From Nocardiopsis metallicus (GTDB taxonomy: Bacteria > Actinomycetota > Actinomycetes > Streptosporangiales > Streptosporangiaceae): 64,000 nt of DNA. This document shows positions 10,158 through 59,215 of the stretch, piece after piece. Both the position numbers and the translations under genes were made by a program. A model generated the notes under the pieces. That model had not been told where the DNA came from. It saw only the letters and a list, made by a program, of their open reading frames with translations, and searched no databases. Positions within the stretch are counted from its first letter, which is position 1; each line of letters starts with the position of its first letter. The DNA is taken from positions 5,642,001 through 5,706,000 of the forward strand of contig NZ_JACHDO010000001.1 of assembly GCF_014201115.1 (NCBI RefSeq). The letters run 5' to 3'.

Positions 10158-10183
10158 ACCGGTTCCCGCGCCCGGCGACCAGA

Positions 10184-10217: not shown

Positions 10218-10233
10218 CCCGCGGCCGCGTGCC

Positions 10234-11270: not shown

Positions 11271-12188
11271 ATGGGCCAGGGCACGCACGCACACGTGGTG
11301 GTAGCGGTCAACGGCTCGCCAGCCAGCGAGCGGGCAGTCGGCTGGGCTTCGGGCGAGGCCCGTCGGCGGGGTCACGGGCTGCGTATCGTATACGCTCTCG
11401 GCTGGCCCCTGTACCGCTCTCTGCCTCTCGGCCTACCGGGGTTCAACCTCGACGAGTCCGCTCTGCGCATCGTGGGGAGCGCACGTCGACGCGCCGTGGA
11501 ACTGGAGCCGGACGTCACCGTAGAAGCGGTGGACGTCATCGGCGATCCTGAGACTGTTCTGCTCCTGGAGAGCCAGAGCGCGAGCATGCTGGTACTGGGC
11601 GCACACCACAGGAAGGCCCTGGACGCTGTGCTCCCGGCTTCGACGGTCCTGGAGATGCTCGCCTCGGCTGCGTGCCCGGTCGTGGTCGTGCCCGACCGGC
11701 CGCCCGAAGCCGCCACGGACCGCATCCTGGTGGGTGTCGACGGTTCGGAGACCTCCCGGGCGGCATTGGAGTGGGCCTTCTCCGCGGCAGACGCCCGCGA
11801 AGCGGCGCTGCGCGCGGTAACCGTACGGGAGAACACAGCTTGGTGGCGTTCGGGCGCATCTGAGGACCCGTCGTGGGCGGGGAACGGGAAACAGCCCAAA
11901 CCCGGGAAGGTGGAGGAACGGAGAGCCTACTGCGAGGCCTTGTCCACGGCGGTCGCGGACGAACACGCGCGGTGGCCCCAGGTACAGGTCGAGGAGGTCG
12001 TCGCGACGGGACATCCAGCCAGGGTTCTGTGCACCAGCGCCCGGGACTGCGACCTGATGGTCGTCGGCTCGCACGGCTGCGGCGGCTTCGCCGGCATGCT
12101 GCTCGGCTCGGTGAGCCAGAACGTGATCTCGCACAGCCCCTGCCCGGTCGCCGTGATACGCCCGCCCCGCCCCCTCGGGGCGGCGTAG
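11271..12188 (+). CDS. Tandem universal stress protein (UspA-like, two domains)
   Basis: 305 aa; ATG preceded by GGAGG with five bases between. The N-terminal domain (HVVVAVNGSPASERAVGWA...MLVLGAHHRKALDAVLP) and C-terminal domain (ILVGVDGSETSRAALEWA...[22 protein letters not shown]) both show the Usp fold. Only the second keeps the full G-x2-G-x9-G(S/T) ATP-binding loop. Paralogous to the Usp at 7,758. The long linker is rich in Lys/Glu. Probably a growth-arrest or oxygen-limitation stress protein, transcribed alone from the divergent promoter region it shares with the CBS gene. Confidence 0.88.
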   Translation: MGQGTHAHVVVAVNGSPASERAVGWASGEARRRGHGLRIVYALGWPLYRSLPLGLPGFNLDESALRIVGSARRRAVELEPDVTVEAVDVIGDPETVLLLESQSASMLVLGAHHRKALDAVLPASTVLEMLASAACPVVVVPDRPPEAATDRILVGVDGSETSRAALEWAFSAADAREAALRAVTVRENTAWWRSGASEDPSWAGNGKQPKPGKVEERRAYCEALSTAVADEHARWPQVQVEEVVATGHPARVLCTSARDCDLMVVGSHGCGGFAGMLLGSVSQNVISHSPCPVAVIRPPRPLGAA

Positions 12189-12249
12189 TGAGAGCTTCCG
12201 CCCCGCCGCAGAGCGCTTCACCGCGCCCGGCGCTTCACCGCACCGGCGG

Positions 12250-12777
12250 TCAGACAGAAGCGGCGCCCGAGGCGCCCGCCGCGGAAAGGTCGGCGGCGAT
12301 CGTGTCGGCCCACGCGTCGATCTCCTCCCAGTCACGGAAGTCGCCGTAGCGCCCTCCGATGAGTCGGTAGAAGACCCGTCCAGGCAACGGTAGGTGTTGC
12401 GGCCGCAGGGCGCCGGCCAGCAGACGGTGATCGCGGAGATCGTGTCCGCGGCACAGTTCCATGATCTCCTCGGGGTCCCGGGAGTGCCTCTCGAACCACC
12501 CTCCGACGACCCTGGCCAGGCCGACGCTGAACAACCAGATCGGAATCCGGCCGAGCGGGTCGGTGTTGGCACGAACGTAGCCGGAGGCCTCATCGAGCCA
12601 GGCGCCGCCGTGCACGGCACTGCCCAGGACCACGGCCTCGTAGCCGTCCGCCCCCGGCGCATCGAACAGCGGCCGCACGTCCGCGGTGCGACCCCGCTCG
12701 CGCAACCGGGCGGCGATCCTCCTCGCGATTCCCTCCGTGGAACCGTGCTCACTCGCGTATCCCACCAGGACCGTCAT
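12250..12777 (-). CDS. Flavodoxin-domain protein (menaquinone-dependent protoporphyrinogen oxidase-like)
   Basis: 175 aa; GGAGG lies 7 nt before the ATG. The N-terminus VLVGYASEHGSTEGIARRIA is the FMN phosphate-binding loop (T/S-x-G-S-T) of flavodoxins; YEAVVLGSAVHGGAWLDEA is the second FMN-contact loop. The later WLFSVGLARV and DFRDWEEIDAWADTIA segments match the HemG-like flavodoxin family seen in actinobacterial stress clusters. Likely a cytoplasmic FMN redox protein; an actual HemG role is unproven. Confidence 0.85.
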   Translation of the reverse strand: MTVLVGYASEHGSTEGIARRIAARLRERGRTADVRPLFDAPGADGYEAVVLGSAVHGGAWLDEASGYVRANTDPLGRIPIWLFSVGLARVVGGWFERHSRDPEEIMELCRGHDLRDHRLLAGALRPQHLPLPGRVFYRLIGGRYGDFRDWEEIDAWADTIAADLSAAGASGAASV

Positions 12778-12962
12778 GACGAAACCTCCGACTCGAGTTC
12801 TGCCGATCCGGGGCCCACGGCACAGGAACGGCCGACGGCCCCGGCCTGTCCCGGGACGGGCGTTGGCCGGACGGCGGAGCCGCCAGCCCCGGCTGCGGCG
12901 ACGCGCCTCCCCGTTGGAGCCGGGCCCGGCCTCCCCCGTGCCGGACGCCGGCGCCGCCCCTC

Positions 12963-13382
12963 CTACTCCTGCGCCTTGCGTGAGATGGGCACCCGACGGC
13001 TGCTCTGCGACCGCTGGGTCAGACCGATGCTCACCTCCAGGATTCCCTTGTCGTAGGAGGCGGTGACGTCCTCCTCGGAGGCGTCCGCCGGGAGCGCGAG
13101 CATGCGGCTGAAGGAGCCGTAGCGGAACTCCGAGTGCTGCGGCGACGTCGTGCTCTCGCTCCGCTCCGCATGGATCGTCAGGACCCCGTGTTCGACGGTC
13201 ACGGTGAGGTCCTTGTCCGGGTCCATCCCGGGTGCCTCCGCCCGAACCACGTACCGGTCGTCCTCCATCGCGGTCTCCACCCGCAGACCCGCGGGAGACC
13301 TACCGGAGAAGAGCGGGGCGTCGAACAGCTCGGCCAGGTCCGGCAAGCGGGACGGTCCGGTGTGACGAACAATGGCGTTCAT
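12963..13382 (-). CDS. Hsp20/alpha-crystallin small heat-shock protein
   Basis: 139 aa with an alpha-crystallin domain from about residue 33 (VETAMEDDRYVVRAEAPGMDPDKDLTVTVEHGVLTIHAERSE) through FRYGSFSRMLALPADASEEDVTASYDKGILEVSI, and a short tail with the V-P-I oligomerisation motif. ATP-independent holdase chaperone. GAGGAG precedes the ATG, which overlaps the stop of the upstream fragment, as in a former operon. Typical member of this stress cluster. Confidence 0.93.
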   Translation of the reverse strand: MNAIVRHTGPSRLPDLAELFDAPLFSGRSPAGLRVETAMEDDRYVVRAEAPGMDPDKDLTVTVEHGVLTIHAERSESTTSPQHSEFRYGSFSRMLALPADASEEDVTASYDKGILEVSIGLTQRSQSSRRVPISRKAQE

Positions 13383-13756
13383 GTCATCATCTCCTCGCTC
13401 GATCGACCCGGGCCCGTGACGGCGGGCCGCGGCCTACCTCCCACTCGACCCGAATCGTGCCCTTGTGAACAGGCGTCGAAGGGTTCTTCGCGTAGGGTCT
13501 TCAGTCCCACGTTCCCAGGCCCGTCGTCGACCGCGGCGAGCACGTGGAAACCCTCCTCCTGGGCGAAGTGCGAAAGCGGGACCGCGTACAGCCCGACAGC
13601 GCCCCTACCGCGTACCGGCGCTCGGCGCCCCGGCGGGCAGAGCACCCGGGGCGCAGCGCGCACGGCGCCCGCCAAATCCTCCAGCATCCGCCCGCCGGTG
13701 AGCATGAGGGCGATGATCGCGCCCGCGACCAGTTCCCCGGCCAGGGCTGCTCCCAC
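13379..13756 (-). pseudogene. Probable fragment of a heavy-metal P-type ATPase
   Basis: The first 30 residues (LAGELVAGAIIALMLTGGRMLEDLAG) match the membrane segment and actuator entry of P1B-type ATPases (family form GEYLAGAVIALMLATGRALEDYA). The rest of the frame, including HFAQEEGFHVLAAVDDG, I do not recognise, and neither the DKTGT phosphorylation loop nor the ATP-binding domain is present. It ends in an ATGA overlap with hsp20. The GTG start lacks a clear ribosome site. Read as a decayed gene; a genuine small protein cannot be excluded. Confidence 0.4.
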
Positions 13757-14003
13757 CCGTGCCAGGTGGCAACGGCATCGACGCCGGGTCAGTGCTCCCG
13801 CAGCGTCTGCGCCACACAGGGCAGAGGCGACGGCGGCCAGGACGAGATGACGTACGCCGCCGAAGGCCCCCGGGGCGCGGCAGGGGGCCGGGCCGAGGTC
13901 CTCGTGCCGCCAGTCCAGCGCGGCCAGGGCCGCGTCCAGTTCGCCGGTCCAACCAACGGGGGCCAGTTCGCTTCATGCGAGAACACCCCTCTACTGGGAT
14001 GCT

Positions 14004-15137
14004 TCAGTCGATTGGGGCGTCCCACGACGCCGCCCAGGTCTCAGGGCCAACGATCCCATCCACCGTGAGCCCTTTCTCATCCTGGAACGCCAGGCACACG
14101 GCCTGGGACTGAGCGCCGTACACACCGTCGACCGCCCCGACGTTCCACCCACGGTGAGCCATCTGGCTCTGCCAGACGGACACGCTGGTGTGCGTGGTCA
14201 CACTCGGGTAGGAGCGGGAGATGTCAGGATGCAGGCTCGCCGGCTCGTAACGGAAGTAGAGTCCGGGCCAGGTCCAGTCCACGGGATCGGTGACGGGTTC
14301 GGTCCAGGCGGCGTTCCATGTCTGCTCGCCGACGATCCCGTCAACGTCCAATGCCTTCTCTGCCTGGAACAGGCGGCATGCGAGTTGGCTCCGGTTGCCG
14401 TACACGCCGTCAACATCGAGCCGCCAACCACGCGTGGCCATCTGTTCCTGCCATACCTGCACGGAAGTGTGTTCGGTCGGAGGCGGGTTCGTGAACTCCA
14501 CACCTGGCCACTCGGGAGGCTCGGCCGTCTGCGTGACTCTGATGTGTGCGTGCGGTTCGGGGGCGTTCTCGGCGGTGGTGCCCTCCGGCTGGAAGGAACC
14601 GTCTTCGACGTAGGGGCGCAGGTTTCCGGGGCACAGGGTGTCGTTCCCAGGGATGTCACCGTGTCCGACGGTGTCGGAGGCATTGGCGCCCAGCGTTTCG
14701 AGGTGATCGATGACGCGGCGGACTGCTGACACCAGGGGTGGTGTGGTGCCGGGGATGAGCACGGGTCCGTCCAGGACGCCAGTCAGGCCACAGATCGCGT
14801 AGTAGGTGGCGTTGCCGAAGTCGGTGCCGTTCGCGCCGGACTGGTACTGGTGTCCGCGCCCGATGTAGATGTAACCGTGTCGACAGACGAGGTAGTTGTA
14901 CGCGATGTCGTCATAGAGGCCGGTCATGTGAGATTCCTGGATACCGCGTACGTACTCGTCGCAGTTGCGGTGCAGGATGGGCACGGGCCAAATCGAGCCC
15001 GCATAGTGGATCGCGATGCCCGGCGAGCCCTCGATGGGACCGTTGCCGGTCGGGTCTCCGTCTGGGTCAGCGCCCCAGTCCCGCCGTGTGACGATGTTCT
15101 CTCCGGTGATCTCATCAGTTTGGATGGATAGGGTCAT
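14004..15137 (-). CDS. N-acetylmuramoyl-L-alanine amidase (PGRP/amidase_2) with two peptidoglycan-binding repeats
   Basis: 377 aa. The N-terminal amidase has the zinc ligands His44 (IHYAG), His159 and Cys169 (TVGHGDIPGNDTLCPG). Two similar peptidoglycan-binding repeats follow at about 225-290 and 305-375, each reading SVxVWQxQMAxRGW...VDGVYG...QS...FQxEK...VDGIVG..TW. No signal peptide is visible, as in phage endolysins. ATG 15137 has GGAGG ten bases upstream; an upstream TTG was rejected. Its place next to an integrase remnant and att core suggests a lysis gene of an old integrated element. Confidence 0.85.
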   Translation of the reverse strand: MTLSIQTDEITGENIVTRRDWGADPDGDPTGNGPIEGSPGIAIHYAGSIWPVPILHRNCDEYVRGIQESHMTGLYDDIAYNYLVCRHGYIYIGRGHQYQSGANGTDFGNATYYAICGLTGVLDGPVLIPGTTPPLVSAVRRVIDHLETLGANASDTVGHGDIPGNDTLCPGNLRPYVEDGSFQPEGTTAENAPEPHAHIRVTQTAEPPEWPGVEFTNPPPTEHTSVQVWQEQMATRGWRLDVDGVYGNRSQLACRLFQAEKALDVDGIVGEQTWNAAWTEPVTDPVDWTWPGLYFRYEPASLHPDISRSYPSVTTHTSVSVWQSQMAHRGWNVGAVDGVYGAQSQAVCLAFQDEKGLTVDGIVGPETWAASWDAPID

Positions 15138-15193
15138 ATAGCGAAATCCTCCAAAGGTCAAAGCTGTCTGACCTTGCCCATGCGGGCGTCTAG

Positions 15194-15769
15194 ATGAAGG
15201 GATGGATCCTCATCAGGTGTTTTGTTTTCAGCTTCGTCGCGGGCACCCTCTCATTACTACTGATGGGTGGCATCGCGATCTATGCCTTCCACCCTGGGCC
15301 CGAGGATGAGCGAGGGGAAACCGGAGCCGGCACGTTGCGTTTCGGTGATTTCTTCGACTACCGGACGGACTCGATGGGCCAGGGGGAAGCGGTGTCGTAC
15401 ACGGTGACGTCCGTACGGATGCGGGACACGCGGGAGGGGCAGTCCCACGCCTTCGAATTCACTCTAGGAATCGTTAACAACACTGATCGCCATGTAGAGG
15501 GCCAGTACCCGGACGTTTATTGCGAAAACGAGGACGAAAGTCACTTGGTCTTGAACCGGGAGATGGCCCGAGGGGGCGATTACCCGGCAGGAATGGAACC
15601 AGAGGCAGGGACTCTCGGAATGACGATAGAGCTCACCTGTGAATTCTCTGGGTCGATTCACCCCGAGGAGCTCGTGATCGCCCTGGAGCGGGAGAACGGG
15701 AGAGCGACGTTCGTCGATCCCATGAGCGTGGTGGATCGGATGAAGTGGCGCCACACGTTCGACGAGTGA
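15194..15769 (+). CDS. Unrecognised membrane-anchored extracytoplasmic protein
   Basis: 191 aa. A membrane helix (about residues 8-31, FVFSFVAGTLSLLLMGGIAIYAF) is followed by an acidic outside domain with strands (VSYTVTSVRMRD, HAFEFTLGIVNNTDRHVEGQYPDVYC, LGMTIELTCEFSGSI). The layout recalls DUF4352-like immunoglobulin-fold proteins but I cannot assign it. Two Cys could form a disulfide. Divergent from the amidase with only 56 bp between, so both belong to one old element. The ribosome site is weak. Confidence 0.6.
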   Translation: MKGWILIRCFVFSFVAGTLSLLLMGGIAIYAFHPGPEDERGETGAGTLRFGDFFDYRTDSMGQGEAVSYTVTSVRMRDTREGQSHAFEFTLGIVNNTDRHVEGQYPDVYCENEDESHLVLNREMARGGDYPAGMEPEAGTLGMTIELTCEFSGSIHPEELVIALERENGRATFVDPMSVVDRMKWRHTFDE

Positions 15770-15878
15770 TCAGTTGCCCTCCACCTGGCCCAGGACGCAG
15801 CAAAACCCGGGGCCTCGAGGGCGCTCCGGGTTTTGGATACGGGTGTTCTACGGCGTTTCGAGTGTGACAGGTGGTGTG

Positions 15879-16124
15879 CGGCTCGCGGAAGCGCAACCAG
15901 GGGCGCCCCAGCTCGTGATCGAGGGCGCGTCCCCGTACAAGGTGCAGAAGCTGCTCGGGCACGAGTCGCCGCTGACCACCCAGCGGTACGCACACCCGGC
16001 GCCGGACGAGTACGACGGCTTCCGGGATGTCTGGCGCGACTCGGCGGACGGCGTGACGCAAGGGCTGACGCACGGCGTGACGCACGAGAAGTCGTCCGGG
16101 GAGGCGGTTCGCCGCTCGTCGTGA
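15879..16124 (+). pseudogene. Tyrosine recombinase (integrase) C-terminal remnant
   Basis: The frame reads EGASPYKVQKLLGHESPLTTQRYAHP, the last catalytic box of tyrosine recombinases (LGH plus the nucleophile Tyr in TTQRYAH). The catalytic Arg box and the core-binding domain are missing. Its tail runs into six TGACGCA-type repeats and then the tRNA-derived core at 16,223, the order int-arms-att of integrative elements. It marks the right end of an element that lies to the left of element A. Confidence 0.75.
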
Positions 16125-16182
16125 CGCACGCGCGACGAACCCGGCGACGTTCAGGTCTGACGCTGACGCACGTGTGACGCAC
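16054..16182. repeat. Six TGACGCA(C) repeats, arm-type integrase sites of the older element
   Basis: Copies start at 16054 (TGACGCAA), 16066, 16078, 16122, 16164 and 16175. They lie between the integrase remnant and the att core. Related TGGCGCAC copies lie just right of the core at 55,340 and 55,351. Confidence 0.6.
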
Positions 16183-16193
16183 GGGACACAGAA

Positions 16194-45879: not shown

Positions 45880-47229
45880 GGGTGTGTCAAGTTAAGGGTG
45901 TAACTGTTGTTCTTGGTCAGCGGCGTGTCGCGGTCAACCGGCCATCAAAGGTCAGATCGAACGCGTTCAGCGCCTTCTTCCAGCGCGCGCTCCACTTGGC
46001 CCGCCCGGTCCCCTTCGGATCCAGAGCCATCAACGCCATGTAGACGCACTTGAGCGCGGCCTGCTCGTTGGGGAAGTGCCCCCGAGCCTTGACCGCGCGG
46101 CGGATCCGGGCGTTGATCGACTCGATCGCGTTCGTGGTGCAGATGATCTTGCGGATCTCCACATCGAAGGCCAGGAACGGCACCATCTCCGCCCAGGCGT
46201 TCTCCCACAACCGCACGATCGCCGGGTACTTGTCCCCCCACTCCTCGCAGAACTCGGAGAACCGCTCCAGAGCGGCCTCCTCGGTGGCGGCGGTGTAGAC
46301 GGGCTTGAGCGCCTTGGCGACCTTCTCCCAGTCGGCCCGGGAGGCGTAGCGGAAGCTGTTGCGCAGCAGGTGCACGATGCAGGTCTGCACCACCGTGCGC
46401 GGCCACACCGACTCCACCGCCTCGCTCATGCCCTTGATCCCGTCGGCCACGAGCATGAGCACGTCGGCCACACCACGGTTCTTGAGTTCGGTGAACACGT
46501 GCGCCCAGTACTTGGCGCCCTCGTTCCCATCGCCGGCCCACAGACCGAGGATGTCGCGCTCACCCTCGGCCGTGACGCCGAGCACGACGTAGATGGGCCG
46601 GTTGGCGACCTGGCCATCGCGGATCTTGACGTTGATGGCGTCCACGAACAGCACCGGGTAGACCTGGTCCAGGGGCCGGTTCTGCCACTCGGCCATGCGC
46701 TCCATGGCCGCCTCGGTGATGTTGGAGATGGTCTGCTTGGACACGTTGGCGTCGTAGACCTCGGCCAGGTGGGCGCAGATCTCGCCGTGGGTCAGGCCGC
46801 GGGCTGAGAGTGAGAGGACGATGCCGTTGACCCCGTTCAACCGCCTCTGGCGCTTGCGGACGATCTGGGGCTCGAAGGAGCCGTCGCGGTCGCGGGGCAC
46901 GTCGAGCTCGACGGGTCCGGCCTCGGTGGTCAGGGTCTTGGACCGGGTGCCGTTGCGGGTGTTGCCGCCGGGCTCGGTGGAGCGTTCGTGCTTGGCGTAG
47001 CCCAGGTGGGTGTCCATCTCGGCGGCCAGGACGTTCTCCAGGGCGGTCTTGGTCAGGCGGGCCAGTAGCCCGTTCTCGCCGACCAGCTCGATGCCCTCGG
47101 CCTCGGCCTTGGTCTTCAGTTCCTGGACGAACTCTTCGTCCGACCTGCCAGTATCGGCCTTGACCTGCGTCTTGTCACTCATGGTGCACTCCTACCCCCT
47201 TGGAGTTACACCCCTACCTTTACACTCCC
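45880..47229 (-). mobile_element. IS256-family insertion sequence
   Basis: 1,350 bp with imperfect terminal repeats of about 25 bp (GGGTGTGTCAAG... left; GGGAGTGTAAAG... right, both ending in GGGTGTAAC) and an 8-bp target duplication GTTCCCGT at 45872-45879 and 47230-47237, as usual for IS256. It landed between the aspS terminator and the JmjC-like gene, whose stop codon touches the right duplication. Confidence 0.92.
45917..47182 (-). CDS. IS256-family (mutator-type) transposase
   Basis: 421 aa. Characteristic segments: MDTHLGYAKHERS, RNGTRSKTLTTEAGPVELDVPRDRDGSFEPQIV, the first Asp in PVLFVDAINVKIRDG, the second in VLMLVADGIKGM, CIVHLLRNSFRY (C-x2-H) and the Glu in TNAIESINARIRR. Full length with the DDE triad intact, so probably active. 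Confidence 0.95.
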   Translation of the reverse strand: MSDKTQVKADTGRSDEEFVQELKTKAEAEGIELVGENGLLARLTKTALENVLAAEMDTHLGYAKHERSTEPGGNTRNGTRSKTLTTEAGPVELDVPRDRDGSFEPQIVRKRQRRLNGVNGIVLSLSARGLTHGEICAHLAEVYDANVSKQTISNITEAAMERMAEWQNRPLDQVYPVLFVDAINVKIRDGQVANRPIYVVLGVTAEGERDILGLWAGDGNEGAKYWAHVFTELKNRGVADVLMLVADGIKGMSEAVESVWPRTVVQTCIVHLLRNSFRYASRADWEKVAKALKPVYTAATEEAALERFSEFCEEWGDKYPAIVRLWENAWAEMVPFLAFDVEIRKIICTTNAIESINARIRRAVKARGHFPNEQAALKCVYMALMALDPKGTGRAKWSARWKKALNAFDLTFDGRLTATRR

Positions 47230-48040: not shown

Positions 48041-48898
48041 TCAGGAACGGCAGATGGCAGCGCAGTCTGTAGTGACCCGGTCGGTGGTCGGCCGGACGAG
48101 GAACTCCCTGACGTCAGACCGGGGTTGGTGGGTGCTCACGCCGACTTCGCTGAATGGGCAGCGCCTCAGTTGGCCCTCAGCGGAGACGTACAGCGCTCGC
48201 GACCGGCAGAGGTGCCGACATCCTGGTGAGCGCCGCATGGCCCGCAGATGGGCGAGGTAGTCGCGAAAGCCATCCCCGAGTTCGAAGTGATGCTCGAGTA
48301 CGGCCGCATCGCGTTGCTGCTGCTCCTCGTAGCCAGCCACGGTCATCCGGGCGCGCTGGATCGCGAGCTCGTCGAGCAAGACCGGGCTGAACTGGAGCTC
48401 CGCGCCCGCCTCCGTCACGAGCCGCGCCAGCTCACGGCATTCATCGTCGACAAGGTCCCAGTAGCTGACGTGCAGGACGCTCGCAGGGGCATCGACCCTC
48501 AGCAGGGTACTGATACCCGACCCCACGGAACGCCTGGTCCGACCCAGCTTCATCGCGCCACGCGAGTCCGCGGAGACGGTCACGTTCTCCACGAGGTGTG
48601 CGACTTCGGCGAGGGCGGTGACCTCGGCCTCGGTACGGGCCGAGGTCACCACGGAGACAGGCAAACCGAACTGGTGCGAAAGACGAACCAGTTGTCGCAG
48701 TTCGGGGTGATGCGTCGGCTCACCGCCCGTGAGGCAGATGCTCTCGACGCCGATCTCCCTGAGGCGGGACAGGGATCGGGTGTACGTCGCGACGTCCAGG
48801 AATCCGTGGGCCCGATCGGCCCGGAAGCAGAATCCGCACGCGACGGCGCAGTGCCCGGCAGTGGAGACGAGCGCGGTCCGGAACCGCGGGGTGGTCAT
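48041..48898 (-). CDS. Radical SAM enzyme, short, second of the pair
   Basis: 285 aa from ATG 48898, whose ATGA overlaps the stop of the upstream radical SAM gene. Cluster motif C17-x3-C21-x2-C24 (HCAVACGFC), AdoMet-contact strand ICLTGGEPTHHPEL. The C-terminus has extra Cys (SPGCRHLCRSRALYVSAEGQLRRCPF and TDCAAIC) as in truncated SPASM/twitch auxiliary cluster sites. Works with the preceding enzyme; the reaction is unknown. Confidence 0.85.
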   Translation of the reverse strand: MTTPRFRTALVSTAGHCAVACGFCFRADRAHGFLDVATYTRSLSRLREIGVESICLTGGEPTHHPELRQLVRLSHQFGLPVSVVTSARTEAEVTALAEVAHLVENVTVSADSRGAMKLGRTRRSVGSGISTLLRVDAPASVLHVSYWDLVDDECRELARLVTEAGAELQFSPVLLDELAIQRARMTVAGYEEQQQRDAAVLEHHFELGDGFRDYLAHLRAMRRSPGCRHLCRSRALYVSAEGQLRRCPFSEVGVSTHQPRSDVREFLVRPTTDRVTTDCAAICRS

Positions 48899-50199
48899 TG
48901 CACCCCCGTGTTGTCCCAGACCGCGATCTCGACCGTTCCGGTGTAGAAGGCGCACATCTCCTCATCAGGCGCGTCCGCGCCCACCAGGGCCTGCTCATTG
49001 CGTGACGGCCCGCCGCAGATGGCCAGCGCTGGACAGTCGCCGCATTTCTCGTACGGGGCGACCTCTTTGGCGACGCCGCCCAACAGCTCCGGGCCAGCGC
49101 GCAACTCATCGAGCGTGTGGATGAAACTGGGCTCGGTGAAGTTGATGTCGCACAGGCTGATCCTGCTGCCGGGCAGCAGGGCAGCGTTGAGGCTCCGGTC
49201 GCCCTGCATGTGGTCGAAGAGCATCGGGCGCCGGGTGTCGAGAGCCTGAAAGGCACGGTCGAGGACGGAGAAGAGCATGCCTCCCTTGCTGAGCGCGGTG
49301 AGCCGGGCCTCATAGAGTTCGCGCGCGAGGTCGCGTCCCTTGACGCGCCAGCGCCCTTCGGAGGGAATCGGGGTGTTGACGTAGATGAACTTCAGCCCGA
49401 GTTCCTCGATGATCCACGAGACCGTCTCGCCGAGCTGACCGATGTTGGCCGCTGTCGGTGTGAGATTGCATCCCACGTAGAGGCCATCGGCCTCCAGCAG
49501 GCACCGAACGTTGGCGCCGATGCGGTCGTCGGCGGATTGACCGCCGAGGAGTCTGCGGTTGACGGCGTTGATGGCCGGCGGGCCGTCGACCGAGATGCCG
49601 ATGCCGTACTGGTGCCGGACGAAGTGCTCAAGCATCTCGTCTGTGAGGCGGGCTCCGTTGGTGACGACGGTGCGGCGGATGCGCTCGACGTCGTAGCGGG
49701 ATGCAAGCTCGTCGGCCAGCGCATCGCCGTAGCGCATGAGGTCGAACCGGATCGTCGGCTCACCGCCGAACCACTGGATCGAGACTTCCCGCTGCCCAGC
49801 GTTCTGTTCGAAGAGGTACGTCAGCCCCTCTGCGAGTTCGTGGTGTGTCATGTCGGGCTTGCCGGTGTTGGTGTCGACGAAGCAGTACGTGCACGCCATG
49901 TTGCAGCGGTCGGTGAGTACGACGCGCAGACCGCTGATCCGGCTGGGTGTCGGGGCGAGGCCCAGGTCGTGGAGGCGGGCACGGAGGGCTTCGCGCCGGC
50001 CGGTCGGTGGCTCGTCCGGTGTGAAGCCGAGCCCAGCGAGGGCGTCATGAGTCGCGGTCGGGGGAGCAGCGGAGAGGTCTGCGACCTCCCCGCGGTCGAG
50101 GTACACGCTGTCCAGACCGACCGGGTCGAGGAGCACGGATTCCTCGTCCCGGTCGTACTGGACGTACTTCCCCCACAGGAGCTGGGAAGAAGAGGTCAT
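48895..50199 (-). CDS. Radical SAM/SPASM peptide-modifying enzyme
   Basis: 434 aa. About 90 N-terminal residues resembling a RiPP-recognition region precede the AdoMet cluster motif C99-x3-C103-x2-C106 (RCNMACTYC). Then SIQWFGGEPTIRFD, TVVTNGARLTDEM and GIGISVDGPPAINAVNRR follow, and a SPASM region with C386, C389, C395 and C416 (EKCGDCPALAICGGPSRN). This is the anSME/SPASM class that modifies ribosomal peptides or proteins. It starts 4 bp after the 118-aa gene, so the two are translated together. Confidence 0.9.
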   Translation of the reverse strand: MTSSSQLLWGKYVQYDRDEESVLLDPVGLDSVYLDRGEVADLSAAPPTATHDALAGLGFTPDEPPTGRREALRARLHDLGLAPTPSRISGLRVVLTDRCNMACTYCFVDTNTGKPDMTHHELAEGLTYLFEQNAGQREVSIQWFGGEPTIRFDLMRYGDALADELASRYDVERIRRTVVTNGARLTDEMLEHFVRHQYGIGISVDGPPAINAVNRRLLGGQSADDRIGANVRCLLEADGLYVGCNLTPTAANIGQLGETVSWIIEELGLKFIYVNTPIPSEGRWRVKGRDLARELYEARLTALSKGGMLFSVLDRAFQALDTRRPMLFDHMQGDRSLNAALLPGSRISLCDINFTEPSFIHTLDELRAGPELLGGVAKEVAPYEKCGDCPALAICGGPSRNEQALVGADAPDEEMCAFYTGTVEIAVWDNTGVQ

Positions 50200-50203
50200 G
50201 GTG

Positions 50204-50560
50204 TCAGGCCGTTTCCTCTTCGCTGATGCCCAGTTCGGCCATGGCCTCGCGAATGGCCTTCTCGTAGGTGACCTGAAGTTCGGCCGAGGCGGCGGGCGAA
50301 CCGCCGTCCGCCAGGACGATCACGCCGGGCAGGGTGGGGTTCGGAGCGATGATGGCGATCCCAGCGGGCTCGGTGCTGATCGCCATGACGGCGCCCTCGA
50401 CGGTCACCCAGTCGAGCTTGTCCTTGACGGCTTCGAGAATCCTGCTCTGCTGCTCCTGGAAGGACTCGCGCTCTCCCATCCAGACCCCTGCCTTGCTCTT
50501 GGAGTCCACGACGTCGGCGTAGATGAGGTGATCGGTCTTGCTGCGACGAGCAGTCGGCAT
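50204..50560 (-). CDS. 118-aa protein, candidate substrate or recognition partner of the radical SAM pair
   Basis: First gene of the four-gene operon; AGAGG six bases before the ATG. Not recognised. A charged N-terminus is followed by MGERESFQEQQSRILEAVKDKLDWVTVEGA, a hydrophobic VMAISTEPAGIAIIAPNPTLPGVIVLAD stretch and an acidic helix ending in EEETA. It has no Cys and no typical leader/core split. It could be an unusual RiPP precursor, a peptide chaperone, or a small protein modified in its middle segment. Confidence 0.65.
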   Translation of the reverse strand: MPTARRSKTDHLIYADVVDSKSKAGVWMGERESFQEQQSRILEAVKDKLDWVTVEGAVMAISTEPAGIAIIAPNPTLPGVIVLADGGSPAASAELQVTYEKAIREAMAELGISEEETA

Positions 50561-50769
50561 GTCCTGCCTCTCTTCGATCGGTACGGAGCCACTTTCAACC
50601 GTCGTTGACAGCTACCCGGCTCGGCTCCGGCCAGGCACGTCCACGCTGTCACTTCGGCTCGGAACGCAGCCATGGGGCGCCGTCCTAGTCCTGCCCTAAT
50701 TCCGTTGTCGGCTGGCTACCGTAAGGTGCACGAGGACGACCCGGTGCGAAACGGAAGGGATACGGACCC

Positions 50770-53700
50770 ATGGGTTCGTTGGTGGCCCGATGGACCGGCC
50801 GGGAGGCACGCGCCTTTCGCGAGGCCAAACGCATGAGCGTTCGGGAGTTCGCGGCTCATCTGGGGGTCAACGATGCCGCCGTGTCCAACTGGGAACGCCG
50901 CGGCACCAGGGCGAGGCTGCGCTACGACACACAGCAACTCCTCGATACGGACCTCACCCGATCCGAGCCGGAGGTAGCTGATCGGTTCGAGCTCATCCTG
51001 CGATCCGAGACTCCCGACGATCCGACCGCCCAGTCGCAGCCGCAGGACGAGACAGCGGCCAGTGGCATCCACTTTGGTGGCCGCTCCGGGCAACGAACCG
51101 CCTCCCTTCTTGATGCGGCTCGAACCACGGTCACCGAGTCGACGTACCACCCCGATCAGACAGCCCTCGAACGATTCCGGCGGTTCCTCGACTCTCAAGC
51201 GCGGGTCTTCGTCCTCACCGGAGCCACCGGCAGCGGGAAGACCCTACTCACCCAGTACCTGGCGCACCGGTGGTCGGAGCATGTGGACTTCCAGCTGCAC
51301 ACCTGTTCCACGTGGGCTCTGTCCACGATGAACCTCGCCACGGAGATACTGCGGTACGCCTCGCTGTCTGGTGGTGAGGACGCACTGCTGACTCTGGAAC
51401 GCGCATCACACTTCCTCGAGCGCCCGTGCGTCGTGGTCATCGATGGCGTCGACACCCAGGAGCACCTCACCTCCGTCGGGCGGCATATCGACGGCATCCT
51501 TCGACAAGCCCATTCCGATCGCCTGCGGTTCCTTGTCGTGGTGAGAACGTCTCCCGAACCCGACCTGTCACCCTTTCCCGTCCTGTCAGCCGCCGCCTTC
51601 GGCCATGTGGCGCAGCCGTCCAGGGCGTCCCACACCATGGAGCCATGGACTCTGGCGGAGGCCCGGGAACTGTGGGACCGCGAGCGTCACGCGGATCAGA
51701 TCCCGTTCTCGGACCTGCCGGAATCGCTGCGGTACCTGGCGAGAACGCCCTTGTACATGCGGATGCTGCGGACCGCTGGGGACACCACTCCGGTACGAGC
51801 GCGACCAGGGGCCATCAATGCGTTTCGGCTTGTCGACCACTGCGTTTGTATGGTTCTCGGCCGTGGCTCCCACGACATCGGCTCGGACACGGGTCGCTTC
51901 ACGCGGCTCGCCCGCGAACTGATGCCCGAGGCCATCCCCGGACCGTTGGCCATCGCCGATCAACAGCCTGAACCGGTTCGGGCGTCGAAAGCTCCCGCTG
52001 GGGAGCCAGTGTTCGCATTCGTCGAGCGGGCCTCGGACGGACGAGAACGATTCACGCATGACGTGTTCCGTGAGTACTTTCTCGCCGTCCACATCGTCGA
52101 GCAGATGACAGCCAGGGGACGATCCATCGCGACGGTCGCGGCCTTCAATGACCTGGCTGATCACGCCGCCCGATCGGCTGCGGCTCGGGGCGTATTCGAC
52201 TTCGTCGTGTGCGCCCTCGACTGCCGTGCGCCAAACCTCGTCGGGGTCATCGCCATGGCGCCGTCGATCGATCTGGACGCCGCTCTACCGATGTTGCTCG
52301 AGACTGCTGCGGCCAGTGGTGCTCTCGTGTCCGCCGAGGTGGTTCGCTCTTGTGCTCGCCGGTGTACACAGACCGCGACTCACCAGCTCGCGCGTGCGCT
52401 GCTCGCGACTCCGCACCTCGGGGAGTCGCTCGGGGAACAGTACGCGCCCTGGATCGTCGAGCAACTACGAACCCACGGTTTCGGGATCTGGGACGAGGTC
52501 GCCCGCCACGTCGAACACGCTCTCGACATCCAGGTCAGTACACGCATCGTGGACTGTATCGACCTAGACCAGGCTGAGGAGGCCGCCTTCCTAGCACGGC
52601 ACTTCGATCTGTTCGCCGGTGCCAGGCATGACCATGCCGATCTGCTTCAGCGACTCCTGCGACATCTGGACTGGCGCGTACGGGCGGGCCTGGCGGAGGC
52701 TCTGCTCGGTCACCGCGGACTCAGCTCAACGTTCGTGAACCGCGTCGTCGAACATCTCGTCCACGATGATGACTACAAGGTGCGCGCCGCTATCGCCCGC
52801 GCGGTAGGAACTCTCGACACCGTCGCCGTGCACGACCACGTCCAAGCGTTGCTTTCGGACGGCAACTGGCACGTTCGTGAACGCACTCTGCAGGGACTTC
52901 TCGAGGGGCCGCGAGCACCACTGCCACATCCGGAAGTGGCCCACGCCGTGATGAGGGGCCTCGCCGCCGACAAGGGTTGGGACGCGGCTCCTGCTTCCAC
53001 GGCGAAGCTCCTCGCGAGAATGCGGCTCCTCAACGGAGGGTCGGCCCACGAAGCATCCCCTTCTGAGGGGGGAGCCCTCTTCGGGTTACTCAGGGAACTT
53101 CGGACCGGCTGGATCGAACTACCGTCTCACATCGAACAATCCCTCATATCCCAGGGCAAGGTCTCCTCTCACTGGCTCACCGCCAGAGAGGCTCACGCCG
53201 CCCAGCAGCGAACGGCTTCCCCACGAGGGGAACCGAGCGCCCGTGAACGGTACCGGCGCCGTCGAGGCCAACGTTCCATCCAAGTCGCCCTCGACGTCCA
53301 CAACCTCGATCGTGCGGTCGAGGTCGCCACGGCCTCCGCCGATGCGGGGGTCGATCTCCTCGAGGTCGGCGACCCGTTGATCAAGCGAGCGGGCGTCGCC
53401 GCGATCGAGGCCGTCAAGCGTCACGCACCGGACGCGGCCGTGGTGGCCGAGATGATGTCCGCTGACTGGGGTCGCGACCAAGTCGAGCTCGCGGCCGAGG
53501 CGGGAGCTGATGTCGTCCTTCTCATCGGACCGGCCTCGATCGCCAGCGTATCCGCCGCCGTCGCGGCTGCGCGTCGCCTCGGAGTCGCACTCACGCTCGA
53601 CGTGGCGGCGGAACGCCTTGAGCCCTCGTGGCTGCGCGATATGGAACGAACCGGTGTTGACGGGTTCGTCGTCACCACCAACATCGACCTAGGAGTCGGA

Positions 53701-53922
53701 GGCAATCACCCCCTCGCGACCGCCAGAATGATTCGCTCGCGCAGTCGGCTGCCCGTCGCGGTTTCCGGCGGGTTCAGCACGACCGACGACGCTCTCACGG
53801 CCAGTGATGACTGGGATATCGTCATCGTCGGCCGCAGTGTCGCTGACGCCGTCGCTCCCTCCGACATGGCGCACCAATTGACCACCATCGTCCACCAGGT
53901 CCACACCGAGGAACGTCCATGA
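50770..53922 (+). CDS. Fusion regulator: XRE HTH, STAND-like NTPase, HEAT-like repeats and HPS/OMPDC-like barrel
   Basis: 1,050 aa. Domains: XRE helix-turn-helix (12-45, MSVREFAAHLGVNDAAVSNWERR); P-loop NTPase with GATGSGKT (151-158), Walker B VVVIDGVD (221-228) and a NACHT/STAND-like second half; helical repeats (about 490-800, for example LLRHLDWRVRAGLAEALLGH and HDDDYKVRAAIARAVG); and a 3-hexulose-6-phosphate synthase-like TIM barrel from 835 (IQVALDVHNLDRAVEVA, LLEVGDPLIK, IVIVGRSVADA). In the catalytic D-x-K-x-x-D site it reads E894-M-M896-S-A-D899, so the key Lys is lost and the barrel is probably a ligand sensor. Divergent from the radical SAM operon with 209 bp between; likely controls it. 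Confidence 0.85.
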   Translation: MGSLVARWTGREARAFREAKRMSVREFAAHLGVNDAAVSNWERRGTRARLRYDTQQLLDTDLTRSEPEVADRFELILRSETPDDPTAQSQPQDETAASGIHFGGRSGQRTASLLDAARTTVTESTYHPDQTALERFRRFLDSQARVFVLTGATGSGKTLLTQYLAHRWSEHVDFQLHTCSTWALSTMNLATEILRYASLSGGEDALLTLERASHFLERPCVVVIDGVDTQEHLTSVGRHIDGILRQAHSDRLRFLVVVRTSPEPDLSPFPVLSAAAFGHVAQPSRASHTMEPWTLAEARELWDRERHADQIPFSDLPESLRYLARTPLYMRMLRTAGDTTPVRARPGAINAFRLVDHCVCMVLGRGSHDIGSDTGRFTRLARELMPEAIPGPLAIADQQPEPVRASKAPAGEPVFAFVERASDGRERFTHDVFREYFLAVHIVEQMTARGRSIATVAAFNDLADHAARSAAARGVFDFVVCALDCRAPNLVGVIAMAPSIDLDAALPMLLETAAASGALVSAEVVRSCARRCTQTATHQLARALLATPHLGESLGEQYAPWIVEQLRTHGFGIWDEVARHVEHALDIQVSTRIVDCIDLDQAEEAAFLARHFDLFAGARHDHADLLQRLLRHLDWRVRAGLAEALLGHRGLSSTFVNRVVEHLVHDDDYKVRAAIARAVGTLDTVAVHDHVQALLSDGNWHVRERTLQGLLEGPRAPLPHPEVAHAVMRGLAADKGWDAAPASTAKLLARMRLLNGGSAHEASPSEGGALFGLLRELRTGWIELPSHIEQSLISQGKVSSHWLTAREAHAAQQRTASPRGEPSARERYRRRRGQRSIQVALDVHNLDRAVEVATASADAGVDLLEVGDPLIKRAGVAAIEAVKRHAPDAAVVAEMMSADWGRDQVELAAEAGADVVLLIGPASIASVSAAVAAARRLGVALTLDVAAERLEPSWLRDMERTGVDGFVVTTNIDLGVGGNHPLATARMIRSRSRLPVAVSGGFSTTDDALTASDDWDIVIVGRSVADAVAPSDMAHQLTTIVHQVHTEERP

Positions 53923-54398
53923 TCGTCACGCCCCTTCACCCCGAACGGATCGGCGAGGTCCTGCGCCTCATGGAGTTCGGCGAGCCGTACATCTCAGCGC
54001 GCACCCTGTCCGACTACTGGCTCTACGCCACGTTGTTCTCCTCCACCTGCCCCATCGCCGTCGCGGATGATGGCACCGTCGCCGGAGCGGTGATGGCCTT
54101 CCGCAGCCAGGACGACCCCCAGGACGTCTATGTGCAAGACGTCATGACCCACCCGCGACACCGGCGCCAGGGGATCACACGGGCGCTCCTGGACAGTGTG
54201 CGCTCCCAGGCCGAGGTGTGGGGCTGCCGACGCCTGTACCTCACCTCGGAACCCGACAATCACGCGGCACACGCCAGTTGGACCGCCCTCGGTTTCGTCA
54301 ACGTCCCCGGAGACCACGAAGTCAACGGGGTCTCGGTCATCAGCGACTTCAAGGGGCCTGGCCGTCATCGCGCCGTCTACCAGTTGACCCTGACCTGA
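53919..54398 (+). CDS. GNAT-family N-acetyltransferase
   Basis: 159 aa; start overlaps the fusion regulator's stop by 4 bp (ATGA). Acetyl-CoA pyrophosphate loop VYVQDVMTHPRHRRQGITRALL (R-x2-x-G-x-G/A form) and the strand WGCRRLYLTSEPDNHAAHASWTALGFVNV are typical. Probably acetylates the product or protects against it. Confidence 0.88.
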   Translation: MIVTPLHPERIGEVLRLMEFGEPYISARTLSDYWLYATLFSSTCPIAVADDGTVAGAVMAFRSQDDPQDVYVQDVMTHPRHRRQGITRALLDSVRSQAEVWGCRRLYLTSEPDNHAAHASWTALGFVNVPGDHEVNGVSVISDFKGPGRHRAVYQLTLT

Positions 54399-55538: not shown

Positions 55539-55724
55539 CTACCCGTCGAGACCCTTCAGGTCGGCGAGGAACGCGGTCCACTCAGCCCGCGGGAACTCGA
55601 GGTGCCCGGCCTCGCGGTGCTTCGTGTCTCGGATCGCCCCGGCCCCTTCAGGCAGGTACGCGCACTCGACGCAGTCCTGGTTGTGGTTGCTGTAGGACGC
55701 TTTGCGGAACTCAGGTGTCATCAT
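55539..55724 (-). CDS. DUF397 small protein
   Basis: 61 aa: FRKASYSNHNQDCVECAYL...IRDTKHREAGHLEFPRAEWTAFLADLKG is the DUF397 signature (W/F-x-K-S-S-x-S, then C-V-E, then R-D-S-K). It overlaps the XRE gene stop by 4 bp. These proteins are co-encoded with DUF5753 regulators in streptomycetes and relatives and are thought to work with them, as in BldB-like or toxin-antitoxin-like pairs. Confidence 0.92.
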   Translation of the reverse strand: MMTPEFRKASYSNHNQDCVECAYLPEGAGAIRDTKHREAGHLEFPRAEWTAFLADLKGLDG

Positions 55725-56596
55725 GATTCGTCGCTTTCTTCGGGCAGGATGTCCTCGATGAAACGGGCGCTATGCACGGTCGACAGTGCCGCGCCTTGCA
55801 GTTCGCCGAAGGTCGTCGTGTAGCTCTCGACCTCGGCGTCGGTCTCCTCGAAGACGCCGGAGGCCACGCTATCCGTGTAGGCGATCGGAGCGTCCAGCGG
55901 ATCGGGGAAGTCCAGGAGGGTGAACGACATCCCGAGTGCGGCGTGCGGGCCTGCGCTGAAGGGGAGCACCTGGACGTCGATGTTCGGCAACTGCCCGATT
56001 CTCAACAGGTACTCGAACTGCGCGCGCATCACCTCGGGTCCACCCATGGGGCGACGTAGCGCGGCCTCGTCGATCACCGCCACCAGGCGGGGCGGACGGT
56101 CGTAGCGCGTCAGGATCTCGCGGCGCTCCATGCGCGCGGCCACCTGCCGCTTGATGTGCTCTGCCGAGGTGTATCGGCCCCCGGAGAACACGCCTTCGGC
56201 GTACTCGGGGGTCTGGAGGAGGCCCGGCACGATCGCGACCTGGTAGGTCCGGATGAGGCTCGCCTCGGTCTCGAAGTCCGGCAGGCTCTCCGCTCCGAAG
56301 ACGTCCCGGTACTTCCACCACCAACCGCGTTCCTTGGCGTCGCGCGCGAGCTGGTGGAGGGCTTCCCGCTGCTCGTTCTCCTCGACGTTGTAGAGGGTCA
56401 GCAGCGCGTCGAGGTCAGCGGGTTTGACCGTCTTCAGCTCGCTCGTCTCGAGTTTGCCGATCTTGGCCTTGGCCCAGCCGAGCCGCTCGCTGACGTTGGC
56501 CATCGTGTAGCCGGCGTCCTCGCGCAGGCGTCGGAGGTGCCGCCCGAGGCGTCGACGCCGTACAGACGGCGAGTAGGTGGGGTTCGCGCGTGCCAT
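55721..56596 (-). CDS. XRE-family regulator with DUF5753 domain
   Basis: 291 aa. N-terminal helix-turn-helix (LGRHLRRLREDAGYTMANVSERLGWAKAKIGKLETSE) and a C-terminal DUF5753 ligand-like domain (SLIRTYQVAIVPGLLQTPEYAEGVF...RQVAARMERREILTR...PNIDVQVLPFSAGPHAALGMSFTLLDFPD). Paired with the DUF397 gene. Divergent from the small-ORF/radical SAM run on the plus strand; probable local regulator of element B. Confidence 0.93.
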   Translation of the reverse strand: MARANPTYSPSVRRRRLGRHLRRLREDAGYTMANVSERLGWAKAKIGKLETSELKTVKPADLDALLTLYNVEENEQREALHQLARDAKERGWWWKYRDVFGAESLPDFETEASLIRTYQVAIVPGLLQTPEYAEGVFSGGRYTSAEHIKRQVAARMERREILTRYDRPPRLVAVIDEAALRRPMGGPEVMRAQFEYLLRIGQLPNIDVQVLPFSAGPHAALGMSFTLLDFPDPLDAPIAYTDSVASGVFEETDAEVESYTTTFGELQGAALSTVHSARFIEDILPEESDES

Positions 56597-57749: not shown

Positions 57750-57965
57750 CGGGCACCACCAACCCCCGACCCCCGTGTGTCCGGTGTGCGTGGCTGTCGC
57801 CGGACACGCGGGACCAACCGCCGCCCCTCGATCCGGGGGCGAGGGGCGGCGCTTACCCGGCCATGCACCAGCCGGACGCGGCCCCGAGGAACCACCCACC
57901 TCGGGGCCGCCACCCCACACAACGCCGGTACCGACTCGCCGTTTCGACCGAGGAGACCAGCACAT

Positions 57966-59087
57966 ATGCATGACCTGATCGTCGCCCCCTTCCTCGACCA
58001 CCACCTGTTGATGCGCCCTGGCCACACGGCCGGGGCCAAGCTCCCCCGACGCCGCTACGACGAACTCGCCGCCGCCCCCGGGGGAACTCCGGTGCCCGGG
58101 TGGCTGGTCGACACCGCCGCTACCGTGTTCGGCCTCGACCTGCTCGGGCGCCGCCTCGACCCGACCGTGCTCGTGCGTGAGCGCTCCCCGTATGGGTACG
58201 TGCGCGCCTCCTACGAGCTGAACCTGGGCTGTAACTACGACTGCGAACACTGCTACCTCGGTGACCGGCCGTTCGACGGCCTCGACTGGGCGGGCCGCGA
58301 GAAGCTGTTGCACATCATGCGCGACGCCGGGGTGGTGTGGGTTCAGCTCACCGGCGGGGAACCGCTGATCGACAAGTACTTTCCGGACGTGCACCGGCTC
58401 GCCTACGAGCTGGGCATGATGATCAGCATCAGCTCGAACGGGTCCCGCCTGTCGAACCCGCGCATCCTGGAAGTGCTGACCACCTACCGGCCCTACCGGC
58501 TCACTCTGTCGGTGTACGGGGCGACGGAGGAGTCCTACGACGGCATGACCCGCCGTCGCGGTTCCTACCGGAAGTTCATCCGTGGCCTTGACGCCGCCGT
58601 CGAGGCTGGTCTTCCCGTGAACCTGAACGTGGTGGTGTCCAACCACAACGAGAACGAGGTCGACGCCATGTGCGCCATGGCGGAGTCGCGCGGGGTGCCG
58701 CACCACGTGTTCGTGAACATGGCCCCGACCATTCAGGGCGACGGCGGCGTGCTGGTCACCCAGTCGGCCGAACACCTGCGCGAGCGCAAGCAGTTCACGG
58801 GCTGCAACGCAGGCCACACCTTCTTTCACTCCGATCCGCACGGGCGCGCGTCGATCTGCAAGGTCGGCCGAGACGACGCGATCGACCTCATGTCCGAAGG
58901 TGTCGAGGGCCTGTCCCGGCTCGGCGAGGTCGCCGACCGCCTCATGCTGCGCACCGGCGGGTACTCCGGATGTGCGCTGTCCGGCTCCTGCACGGTGTGT
59001 CGCCCGCTGGCCAAGCAGTACCAGCAGGCCAAGGCCCCCTTGGGGATGTACTGCCAGCACGGAAAGCGGAAGGAGGTGAATGTGTGA
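57966..59087 (+). CDS. Radical SAM peptide-modifying enzyme of element B
   Basis: 373 aa; GAGGAG ten bases before the ATG. About 80 residues at the N-terminus (recognition-like) precede the cluster motif C89-x3-C93-x2-C96 (GCNYDCEHCYLGD), then VWVQLTGGEPLIDKYFPDV, ISSNGSRLSNPRIL and LTLSVYGATEESYDGMT. The C-terminal auxiliary-cluster Cys are in FTGCNAGHTFFHSDPHGRASICKVG and GYSGCALSGSCTVC...MYCQHG. The stop overlaps the precursor's start, binding enzyme and peptide tightly. Confidence 0.9.
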   Translation: MHDLIVAPFLDHHLLMRPGHTAGAKLPRRRYDELAAAPGGTPVPGWLVDTAATVFGLDLLGRRLDPTVLVRERSPYGYVRASYELNLGCNYDCEHCYLGDRPFDGLDWAGREKLLHIMRDAGVVWVQLTGGEPLIDKYFPDVHRLAYELGMMISISSNGSRLSNPRILEVLTTYRPYRLTLSVYGATEESYDGMTRRRGSYRKFIRGLDAAVEAGLPVNLNVVVSNHNENEVDAMCAMAESRGVPHHVFVNMAPTIQGDGGVLVTQSAEHLRERKQFTGCNAGHTFFHSDPHGRASICKVGRDDAIDLMSEGVEGLSRLGEVADRLMLRTGGYSGCALSGSCTVCRPLAKQYQQAKAPLGMYCQHGKRKEVNV

Positions 59088-59215
59088 TGGCCCCTGTGAC
59101 GGTTGCTGTGCCGACCCTGCCCAGCCAGGAGTCGGTCGAGGTCGTCGAGGACCTGGACGCGGTCCTGGAGTCCGAGCAGTGCAGTTGCAACGCCGGTGAT
59201 GACAACCCGTTCTAG
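59087..59215 (+). CDS. Putative RiPP precursor peptide with CSC tail
   Basis: 42 aa, starting inside the radical SAM stop (TGATG), with AAGGAGG 12 nt upstream. Acidic leader (PSQESVEVVEDLDAVLESE) and a compact C-terminal core QCSCNAGDDNPF. Size, acidic leader, position and Cys/Asn/Asp-rich end are as expected for the substrate of the adjacent enzyme, which likely forms a thioether or carbon-carbon link in the core. I cannot name the RiPP class. Confidence 0.75.
   Translation: MAPVTVAVPTLPSQESVEVVEDLDAVLESEQCSCNAGDDNPF

Follow-up and report, generated by a model that had tools for sequence, protein, structure and literature searches.

What would a DNA-binding switch do with the barrel of a metabolic enzyme at its sensor end, and which genes would it serve? 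The question is raised by a gene at 50770-53922 (+) of the window, which is the whole 64,000-nucleotide stretch of Nocardiopsis metallicus DNA that was analysed (contig NZ_JACHDO010000001.1, positions 5,642,001 to 5,706,000). The gene is a single intact open reading frame (ORF) with a 1050-residue product. An earlier note on this DNA had described the product as a helix-turn-helix (HTH) head followed by a STAND-type NTPase, HEAT-like repeats and a barrel resembling 3-hexulose-6-phosphate synthase (HPS), and had cast it as the natural candidate controller of a divergent radical SAM operon. The order of domains was borne out by Pfam matches, the predicted model and relatives in other genomes. 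From the sequence comparisons described below, we consider it reasonably probable that the protein is a MalT/AfsR-like STAND transcription regulator with a ligand-binding pseudo-HPS sensor, and that its ligand is handled by a GNAT acetyltransferase encoded directly downstream. This estimate covers the DNA-binding regulator and the ligand model together, and the predicted regulator function is the more secure of the two.

Architecture and distribution of the fusion protein

The gene and its predicted domains are as follows.

50770-53922, + strand: STAND regulator gene, 1050 residues, in the order HTH, NACHT-like NTPase, HEAT, pseudo-HPS barrel; supported by near full-length relatives
50770-51003, + strand: XRE-like HTH head, residues 1-78; sub-threshold Pfam matches, helices in the model, tblastn matches in HTH-bearing relatives
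51145-51804, + strand: STAND NTPase core, residues 126-345; P-loop GATGSGKT, Walker B VVVIDG, sensor VVRT, and LARTPLY
52057-53214, + strand: FTHDVFREYF element and HEAT-like helical solenoid, residues 430-815; Pfam HEAT_2 and helices in the model
53254-53901, + strand: HPS/KGPDC-like (beta/alpha)8 barrel, residues 829-1044
53449-53469, + strand: remodelled active-site motif E-M-M-S-A-D-W, residues 894-900

The head forms five helices in the predicted model (residues 10-79), and its best XRE-type Pfam matches lie below their cut-offs (HTH_31, 20.4 bits against 27; HTH_3, 19.7 against 23). Together these make the DNA-binding head proposed in the earlier note likely, as a prediction. Neither the OmpR-type DNA-binding domain nor the BTA domain that characterize SARP/AfsR proteins was among the 25 Pfam matches listed, and the N-terminus fits other HTH models. 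The Pfam NACHT model scored 23.2 bits against a curated cut-off of 26.7, and no other STAND model in Pfam reached its own cut-off on the window protein; we therefore label the NTPase NACHT-like only. The P-loop GxxxxGK(S/T) and the Walker B hhhhD are nevertheless present in the aligned family, as judged from the 12 commonest variants of each motif, and in this qualified form the STAND-type NTPase holds. The FTHDVFREYF element resembles the end of a NACHT-type module. At the C-terminus we found a barrel fold of the HUMPS/OMPDC (beta/alpha)8 type. The barrel resembles HPS and lacks what defines it: the protein scored 106 bits against a cut-off of 200 with the HPS model TIGR03128, and in place of D-x-K-x-x-D and a histidine on a later strand, all 24 aligned members carry E-M-M-S-A-D and Thr969.

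A frameshift or assembly artefact joining two genes, raised in the earlier note, was rejected. A whole-protein scan of genome_contigs gave 25 loci, 17 of which match near end to end (from residue 8 or lower to residue 1023 or higher). The full-length matches span seven named genera, Nocardiopsis, Actinomadura, Nocardia, Micromonospora, Rugosimonospora, Saccharopolyspora and Amycolatopsis, together with one Micromonosporaceae metagenome-assembled genome (MAG). The fusion and the barrel fold are established computationally. Three Nocardia species records (L004-L006) contain near-identical 21-kb loci, a similarity that suggests either recent transfer or closely related records. With further searches the set grew to 46 rows, comprising the window, L002-L026 and L114-L133, or 42 distinct loci after removal of the duplicates L118, L120, L122 and L127.

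The family is sparse. At E ≤ 1e-55 a barrel profile matched 15 of 300 genomes in the family of L009, one of them the degenerate L126 (222.9 bits), and 8 of 297 in the family of L015. It matched 1 of 375 in the family of L012 and 1 of 301 in the phylum of a Chloroflexota MAG, in both cases the centre genome itself; each of these counts includes its centre genome, which was picked for having the gene. In the window's own family the whole protein found some match in 51 of 298 genomes (E ≤ 1e-10), most of which matched only at the HTH or through an ordinary barrel; inspection identified four full-length proteins (its own and those of G245, G286 and G066) and three partial ones (G004, G220 and G199). 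A phylum-wide profile search (E ≤ 1e-30) matched 46 of 396 genomes. Because only the window's own genome exceeded 200 bits, the next score being 151.6, the remaining matches look like ordinary HPS. The weak family-level barrel matches that were inspected (L134-L138) are likewise ordinary HPS/KGPDC-type proteins with D-x-K-x-x-D.

Phage or plasmid cargo was rejected as a description of the gene. A barrel alignment search of viral_contigs, which used patterns from two short peptides and did not extend to the phage collection, found no relative. Among plasmids, the barrel search returned 106 records, all below 60% identity, and the 15 rows shown were HPS proteins at 30-32%; the GNAT search returned one half-length match. 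A search of open-access papers, a coverage outside which most subscription journals lie, turned up no account of this architecture.

A few relatives depart from the common plan. In L020 (Nocardia jiangxiensis) a caspase-like domain replaces the HTH (Peptidase_C14, E 1.9e-4, 21.7 bits against a cut-off of 21.4; GHG and DCCYSG seen by eye), and the STAND, HEAT, barrel and GNAT parts are retained. L012 gave no HTH match by tblastn. L140 encodes an HTH 62% identical over 69 residues on a protein that reads by eye as HTH, NB-ARC-like and WD40-like, with no barrel or GNAT match in its 9-kb stretch. These three variants indicate that heads and sensors are exchanged. The main gene of L126 (10584-12185, gene turned to +) encodes an HTH, a short HEAT-like stretch and a degenerate barrel, with no STAND domain; it faces a short ORF and a gene of an amino-acid permease cluster. 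L139 is the remnant of a broken regulator with interrupted frames, in which D899 is also changed and GNAT sequence follows (residues 5-150 matched).

A remodelled barrel paired with an acetyltransferase

The site was compared with three HPS chains, with the residue roles of HPS and KGPDC taken from Table 1 of PMC5980557. The family retains D842, E865, D899, D944 and D973 of HPS together with the G loops. Replacements relative to HPS are T to D868, D to E894, K to M896, T/I to S897, H to T969, G to N971 and A to S999, and W900 is new. The lysine that the earlier note reported as absent is indeed a methionine; the loss is not of the lysine alone, since the equivalents of Asp62, Lys64 and His136 have become Glu, Met and Thr, respectively, and the replacements are family-wide. 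Ten signature residues (D868, E894, M895, M896, S897, D899, W900, T969, N971 and S999) are identical in all 24 aligned members, whose barrels are 51-86% identical to that of the window. All ten are intact in 43 of the 46 rows (39 of 42 distinct loci). The exceptions are L124, with M895L; L126, which lacks nine of the ten; and L133, a fragment that does not reach these positions.

The barrel is also the most conserved part of the protein. It has the highest share of invariant columns among 17 HTH-bearing rows (71 of 216), and median pairwise identity over 31 loci, two of which (L012 and L020) have no HTH, was 0.61 for the barrel, 0.59 for the GNAT, 0.47 for the HTH, 0.43 for the STAND domain and 0.38 for the HEAT region. 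A decayed pseudo-enzyme was rejected on these grounds: relaxed decay would produce the opposite pattern, and the new residues are kept. The barrel was therefore remodelled rather than decayed. Judged from the alignments, it is a clean case of an enzyme fold altered at key residues and then held fixed. According to their PDB entry titles, the KGPDC mutants K64A (1so4) and H136A (1so3) are deposited with ligand bound, so that loss of one of the two residues leaves binding possible; in the family, both have been replaced. The pattern favours a binding site without the old chemistry.

The most constant partner of the barrel, passed over in the earlier note, is the gene that follows.

53919-54398, + strand: GNAT acetyltransferase, 159 residues, start overlapping the regulator stop by 4 nucleotides; Pfam Acetyltransf_1, 1e-17

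A GNAT gene adjoins the regulator or barrel gene in 45 of 46 rows, or 41 of 42 distinct loci. In 33 of the 44 rows with a called main gene, its match starts exactly 4 nucleotides before the stop codon ends. The sole row without it is L126, which also lacks the STAND domain and the motif; in L023 the match covers the first 47 residues only. Residues around SDYW, LTSE and KG in the GNAT are invariant in 17 of 17 aligned sequences. The pairing extends to a Ktedonobacteraceae MAG of the Chloroflexota (L025), in which a stand-alone barrel of 243 residues is followed after about 135 nucleotides by a GNAT 45% identical to that of the window. From these data we conclude, on computational grounds, that the remodelled site is conserved and that the barrel and GNAT are paired.

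The upstream direct repeat and the divergent genes

The earlier note had pointed to 50,561-50,769 as the place where the head would bind. This 209-bp region, shared with the divergent operon, holds a plausible candidate.

50684-50701, + strand: putative operator, a tandem direct repeat CCTAGTCCTGC-CCTAATT with an 11-bp period, 86 bp before the ATG

Inspection of the upstream regions of the loci revealed CCTAGTnnTGnCCTAGTT, with CCTAG as the direct repeat; in the window the repeat lies 124 bp from the first divergent start. Allowing up to two mismatches, it occurs once in the window, where 0.04 occurrences were expected and 4 of 100 shuffled sequences contained one. In the 7.78-Mb genome the form fitted to the window has one exact site, at 50684-50701, and one site with two mismatches, compared with 4 and 5 for a reversed-pattern control. 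We scanned this version over 30 of the 42 distinct loci, leaving out L005 and L006, which are near copies of L004, and ten loci that have no HTH or are cut there. In 14 of the 29 other loci it was the single best match anywhere in the locus, at -77 to -103, and it tied for best in L007 and L013. A sister clade of Saccharopolyspora and Amycolatopsis carries GTGATCGGTTCTGATC instead, with TGATC at a 10-bp period; for 5 of the clade's 7 other members this repeat was the single best match, at -72 to -96, and in L128 it lies 72 bp before the gene. Repeats stand about 70-105 bp before the gene in most of the HTH-bearing loci scanned. Separately, L004, L007 and L013 contain a further copy with 3-4 mismatches about 3750 bp after the regulator start, on the - strand and just past the GNAT gene.

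An operator general to paralogues of this HTH was rejected. In 20 loci where a similar HTH is part of another protein, no match with up to three mismatches was found within 300 bp before the gene, where L041 was anchored at the wrong place and some loci are near duplicates; L038 has a four-mismatch match at -108. This absence indicates that the motif follows the present family rather than such HTHs in general.

The divergent genes of the window are listed below.

50204-50560, - strand: first gene of the divergent operon, 118 residues, no family above cut-off
48895-50199, - strand: radical SAM protein, 434 residues; the closest models, peptide maturases (PapB, 3e-29), score below cut-off; C-terminus SPASM-like by eye
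48041-48955, - strand: second radical SAM protein, 304 residues
47237-48022, - strand: Cupin_8/JmjC-like protein, 261 residues (24.3 bits against a cut-off of 27.4)

The scan of neighbouring genes covered one or more in each of 27 loci, with some names transferred through protein clusters. A radical SAM gene lies beside the regulator gene in only three of the 27: the window, with its two radical SAM proteins and the cupin_8-like protein; L002, where the divergent genes encode a kinase-like protein, a PLP decarboxylase, a radical SAM protein and CYTH; and L124, at a distance of 1.5 kb. The divergent genes elsewhere are of many kinds, and the regulator is not dedicated to radical SAM systems. 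L003 and L015 have PCMT, pieces of LanB, and LanC, as do L017 and L128 by cluster; short precursor ORFs, which we take to be of the FxLD lanthipeptide type, lie in the gap of L015, L017 and L128, and a similar frame is present in L003. Thymidylate-synthase-like proteins are encoded in L016, L018 and L130, and by cluster in L024 and L129; L018 also has NDK and RNase_T. Other sets comprise an epimerase and a carbamoyltransferase (L014 and L024); an amino-acid permease, a methyltransferase and GPP34 (L010); the same set plus formamidase, nucleoside kinase, dehydrogenase and DegT (L011 and other Micromonospora, partly by cluster); and APH-like kinases with AdoMet synthetase (L132). Neighbours seen at single loci are an amine oxidase (L119), a sensor kinase with a binding protein (L123), AAA_16 (L013) and an HMGL-like protein (L022). 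No Pfam match was obtained for the divergent genes of L004, L007, L012, L021 and L125. Computationally, both the conserved direct repeat and the variability of the divergent operons are established. That one sensor occurs beside such different products points to a common metabolite or signal as the ligand, rather than the product of the operon.

Three further genes were observed in the window. A radical SAM protein of 436 residues (57777-59215, +) belongs to a cluster common to the divergent operon of L002 and to L124, and is followed by a 42-residue ORF ending EQCSCNAGDDNPF that resembles the precursor of a ribosomally synthesized and post-translationally modified peptide. A DUF5753-type HTH regulator (55721-56596, -) belongs to a protein cluster found in 13 of the 46 rows. 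A transposase that appears by eye to be of the IS256 type (45917-47182, -) borders the radical SAM operon, and its cluster is shared with an ORF of L015.

Proposed mechanism and relation to known systems

Our inferences, which concern binding of ligand and DNA, switching driven by ATP, the direction of control and the role of the GNAT, are as follows. At rest, the HEAT arm and barrel would hold the protein inactive. A small phosphorylated metabolite would bind the barrel, in which the metal-ligand acids and phosphate loops are kept and the catalytic lysine and histidine replaced. The NACHT-like ATPase would then exchange nucleotide and the protein would self-associate, so that HTH heads lying side by side could bind the tandem repeat at 50684-50701. 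Binding would change transcription of the operon containing the regulator and GNAT genes; the divergent radical SAM operon would be affected as well, by way of the 209-bp region that the two operons share. The GNAT may make, modify or remove the ligand, or modify the barrel.

Several observations weigh against this model. The Pfam scores of the HTH and NACHT parts are both below cut-off, and a site kept so strictly could equally be catalytic. Barrel and GNAT identities correlate (r 0.89 over 29 loci, a value reached in none of 500 permutations), but barrel and STAND identities do so at 0.95, and common descent alone would give the former value. Neither repeat was found at the gene start in L009, L022, L123 and L126, and only weak versions occur in L004 (four mismatches at -83, outscored by a better match elsewhere in the locus) and in L129 and L130 (a GTGCTC variant by eye). 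Because the patterns were derived from these same loci after inspection, and many of the loci are close relatives, the conserved repeat is a description rather than an independent test. Finally, in several Micromonospora the next called divergent gene lies 380-760 bp from the regulator, and the repeat, near the regulator's own start, about 280-660 bp from that gene; short genes may escape the caller.

This last point bears on which operon is controlled. Since the distance from the repeat to the regulator start is constant despite large divergent gaps, the support for autoregulation is no weaker than that for control of the divergent operon. Control might even be limited to the regulator and GNAT genes, the divergent operons being changing cargo that lies alongside, as their widely varying kinds and a divergent gap ranging from overlapping calls to about 820 bp would allow. 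We regard this restriction as rather improbable: divergent placement beside coherent biosynthetic operons recurs across unrelated types, some gaps are shorter than called where short genes were missed, and the repeat in the window lies 124 bp from the first divergent start. Somewhat more weight, although still that of an unlikely account, goes to the barrel being a working enzyme with new chemistry, which together with the GNAT would make or consume a small molecule in successive steps, with the STAND part regulating or localizing this activity. Six conserved acids (D842, E865, D868, E894, D899 and D944) and the phosphate loops keep the site polar, the barrel is conserved above the switch, and the stand-alone barrel and GNAT of the Ktedonobacteraceae MAG lie near NUDIX and asparagine-synthase genes (with a kinase-like ORF by eye). 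Set against this, the equivalents of Lys64 and His136 are both replaced, the lysine by no obvious catalytic base, and most members fuse the barrel to a switch with a predicted DNA-binding head.

An immune or self-protection switch is a distinctly improbable reading. Here the barrel would sense a change in nucleotide or sugar phosphate caused by a phage or toxin and the head would set the output, gene expression for an HTH and protein cleavage for a caspase. The caspase-like head of L020 stands beside genes for a GmrSD-type protein, a helicase with partial DruE matches and an AAA_11 helicase, which would suit such a switch; that is one locus only, many neighbours of the family look biosynthetic, and the window protein gave three short PADLOC matches, at the P-loop (about 40 residues) and the HTH (27), and no full-length match to a PADLOC defence model. 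L020 also has an FGGY kinase gene nearby, and its positions 45-16183 may be a defence island. More speculatively, and in our view improbable as a whole, the pseudo-HPS barrel and GNAT could form a module that senses one conserved small molecule and is portable: actinobacteria would plug it into STAND switches with differing heads, so that HTH heads run very different natural-product operons and a caspase head triggers an immune-like output. The signal would perhaps be an acetylated phosphate of a sugar or nucleotide, which the GNAT would make or erase. If true, this would amount to an undescribed intracellular signalling system.

For the STAND regulator with a ligand-binding sensor that we favour, the practical gain lies in the barrel. 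According to PMC10936776, AfsR-type STAND regulators control antibiotic production, and inducer binding by the sensor domain of AfsR remains elusive. In the present family the sensor end is a barrel that has a defined pocket and comes from a well-understood family of enzymes, which makes ligand screening practical. Operons of the lanthipeptide, radical SAM and nucleotide type adjoin the module in several genera; the ligand of the module could therefore help to unlock silent clusters, which can be located by using the barrel-GNAT pair as a simple marker.

Among known systems, proteins of the HxlA, KGPDC (UlaD) and OMPDC suprafamily are closest to the barrel, which differs from them by Asp to Glu, Lys to Met, His to Thr, Thr to Asp and Ala to Ser and by its fusion to a STAND protein. 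L140 has a related HTH on a STAND-like protein with another NTPase and WD40-like repeats. NTP-dependent conflict systems are modular, with exchangeable heads, and join STAND proteins to caspase or other effectors, like the caspase-like head of L020. In a term search of the main text of the 2020 eLife paper on these systems (PMC7159879), HUMPS, TIM barrel, orotidine, hexulose and GNAT were absent. The window protein shares a DNA-binding domain, a STAND NTPase and a superstructure repeat with AfsR and large SARPs and with MalT and GutR. According to PMC10936776, AfsR and MalT both belong to the STAND activators, and the direct repeats recognized by SARPs have a spacing of 11 or 22 bp, similar to the 11-bp period found here. 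It differs from these regulators in its XRE-like HTH, where SARPs have an OmpR-type head and MalT a LuxR-type one, in its NACHT-like NTPase, in HEAT rather than TPR repeats, and in the pseudo-HPS barrel at the sensor end. The window protein most likely works like AfsR without being a SARP.

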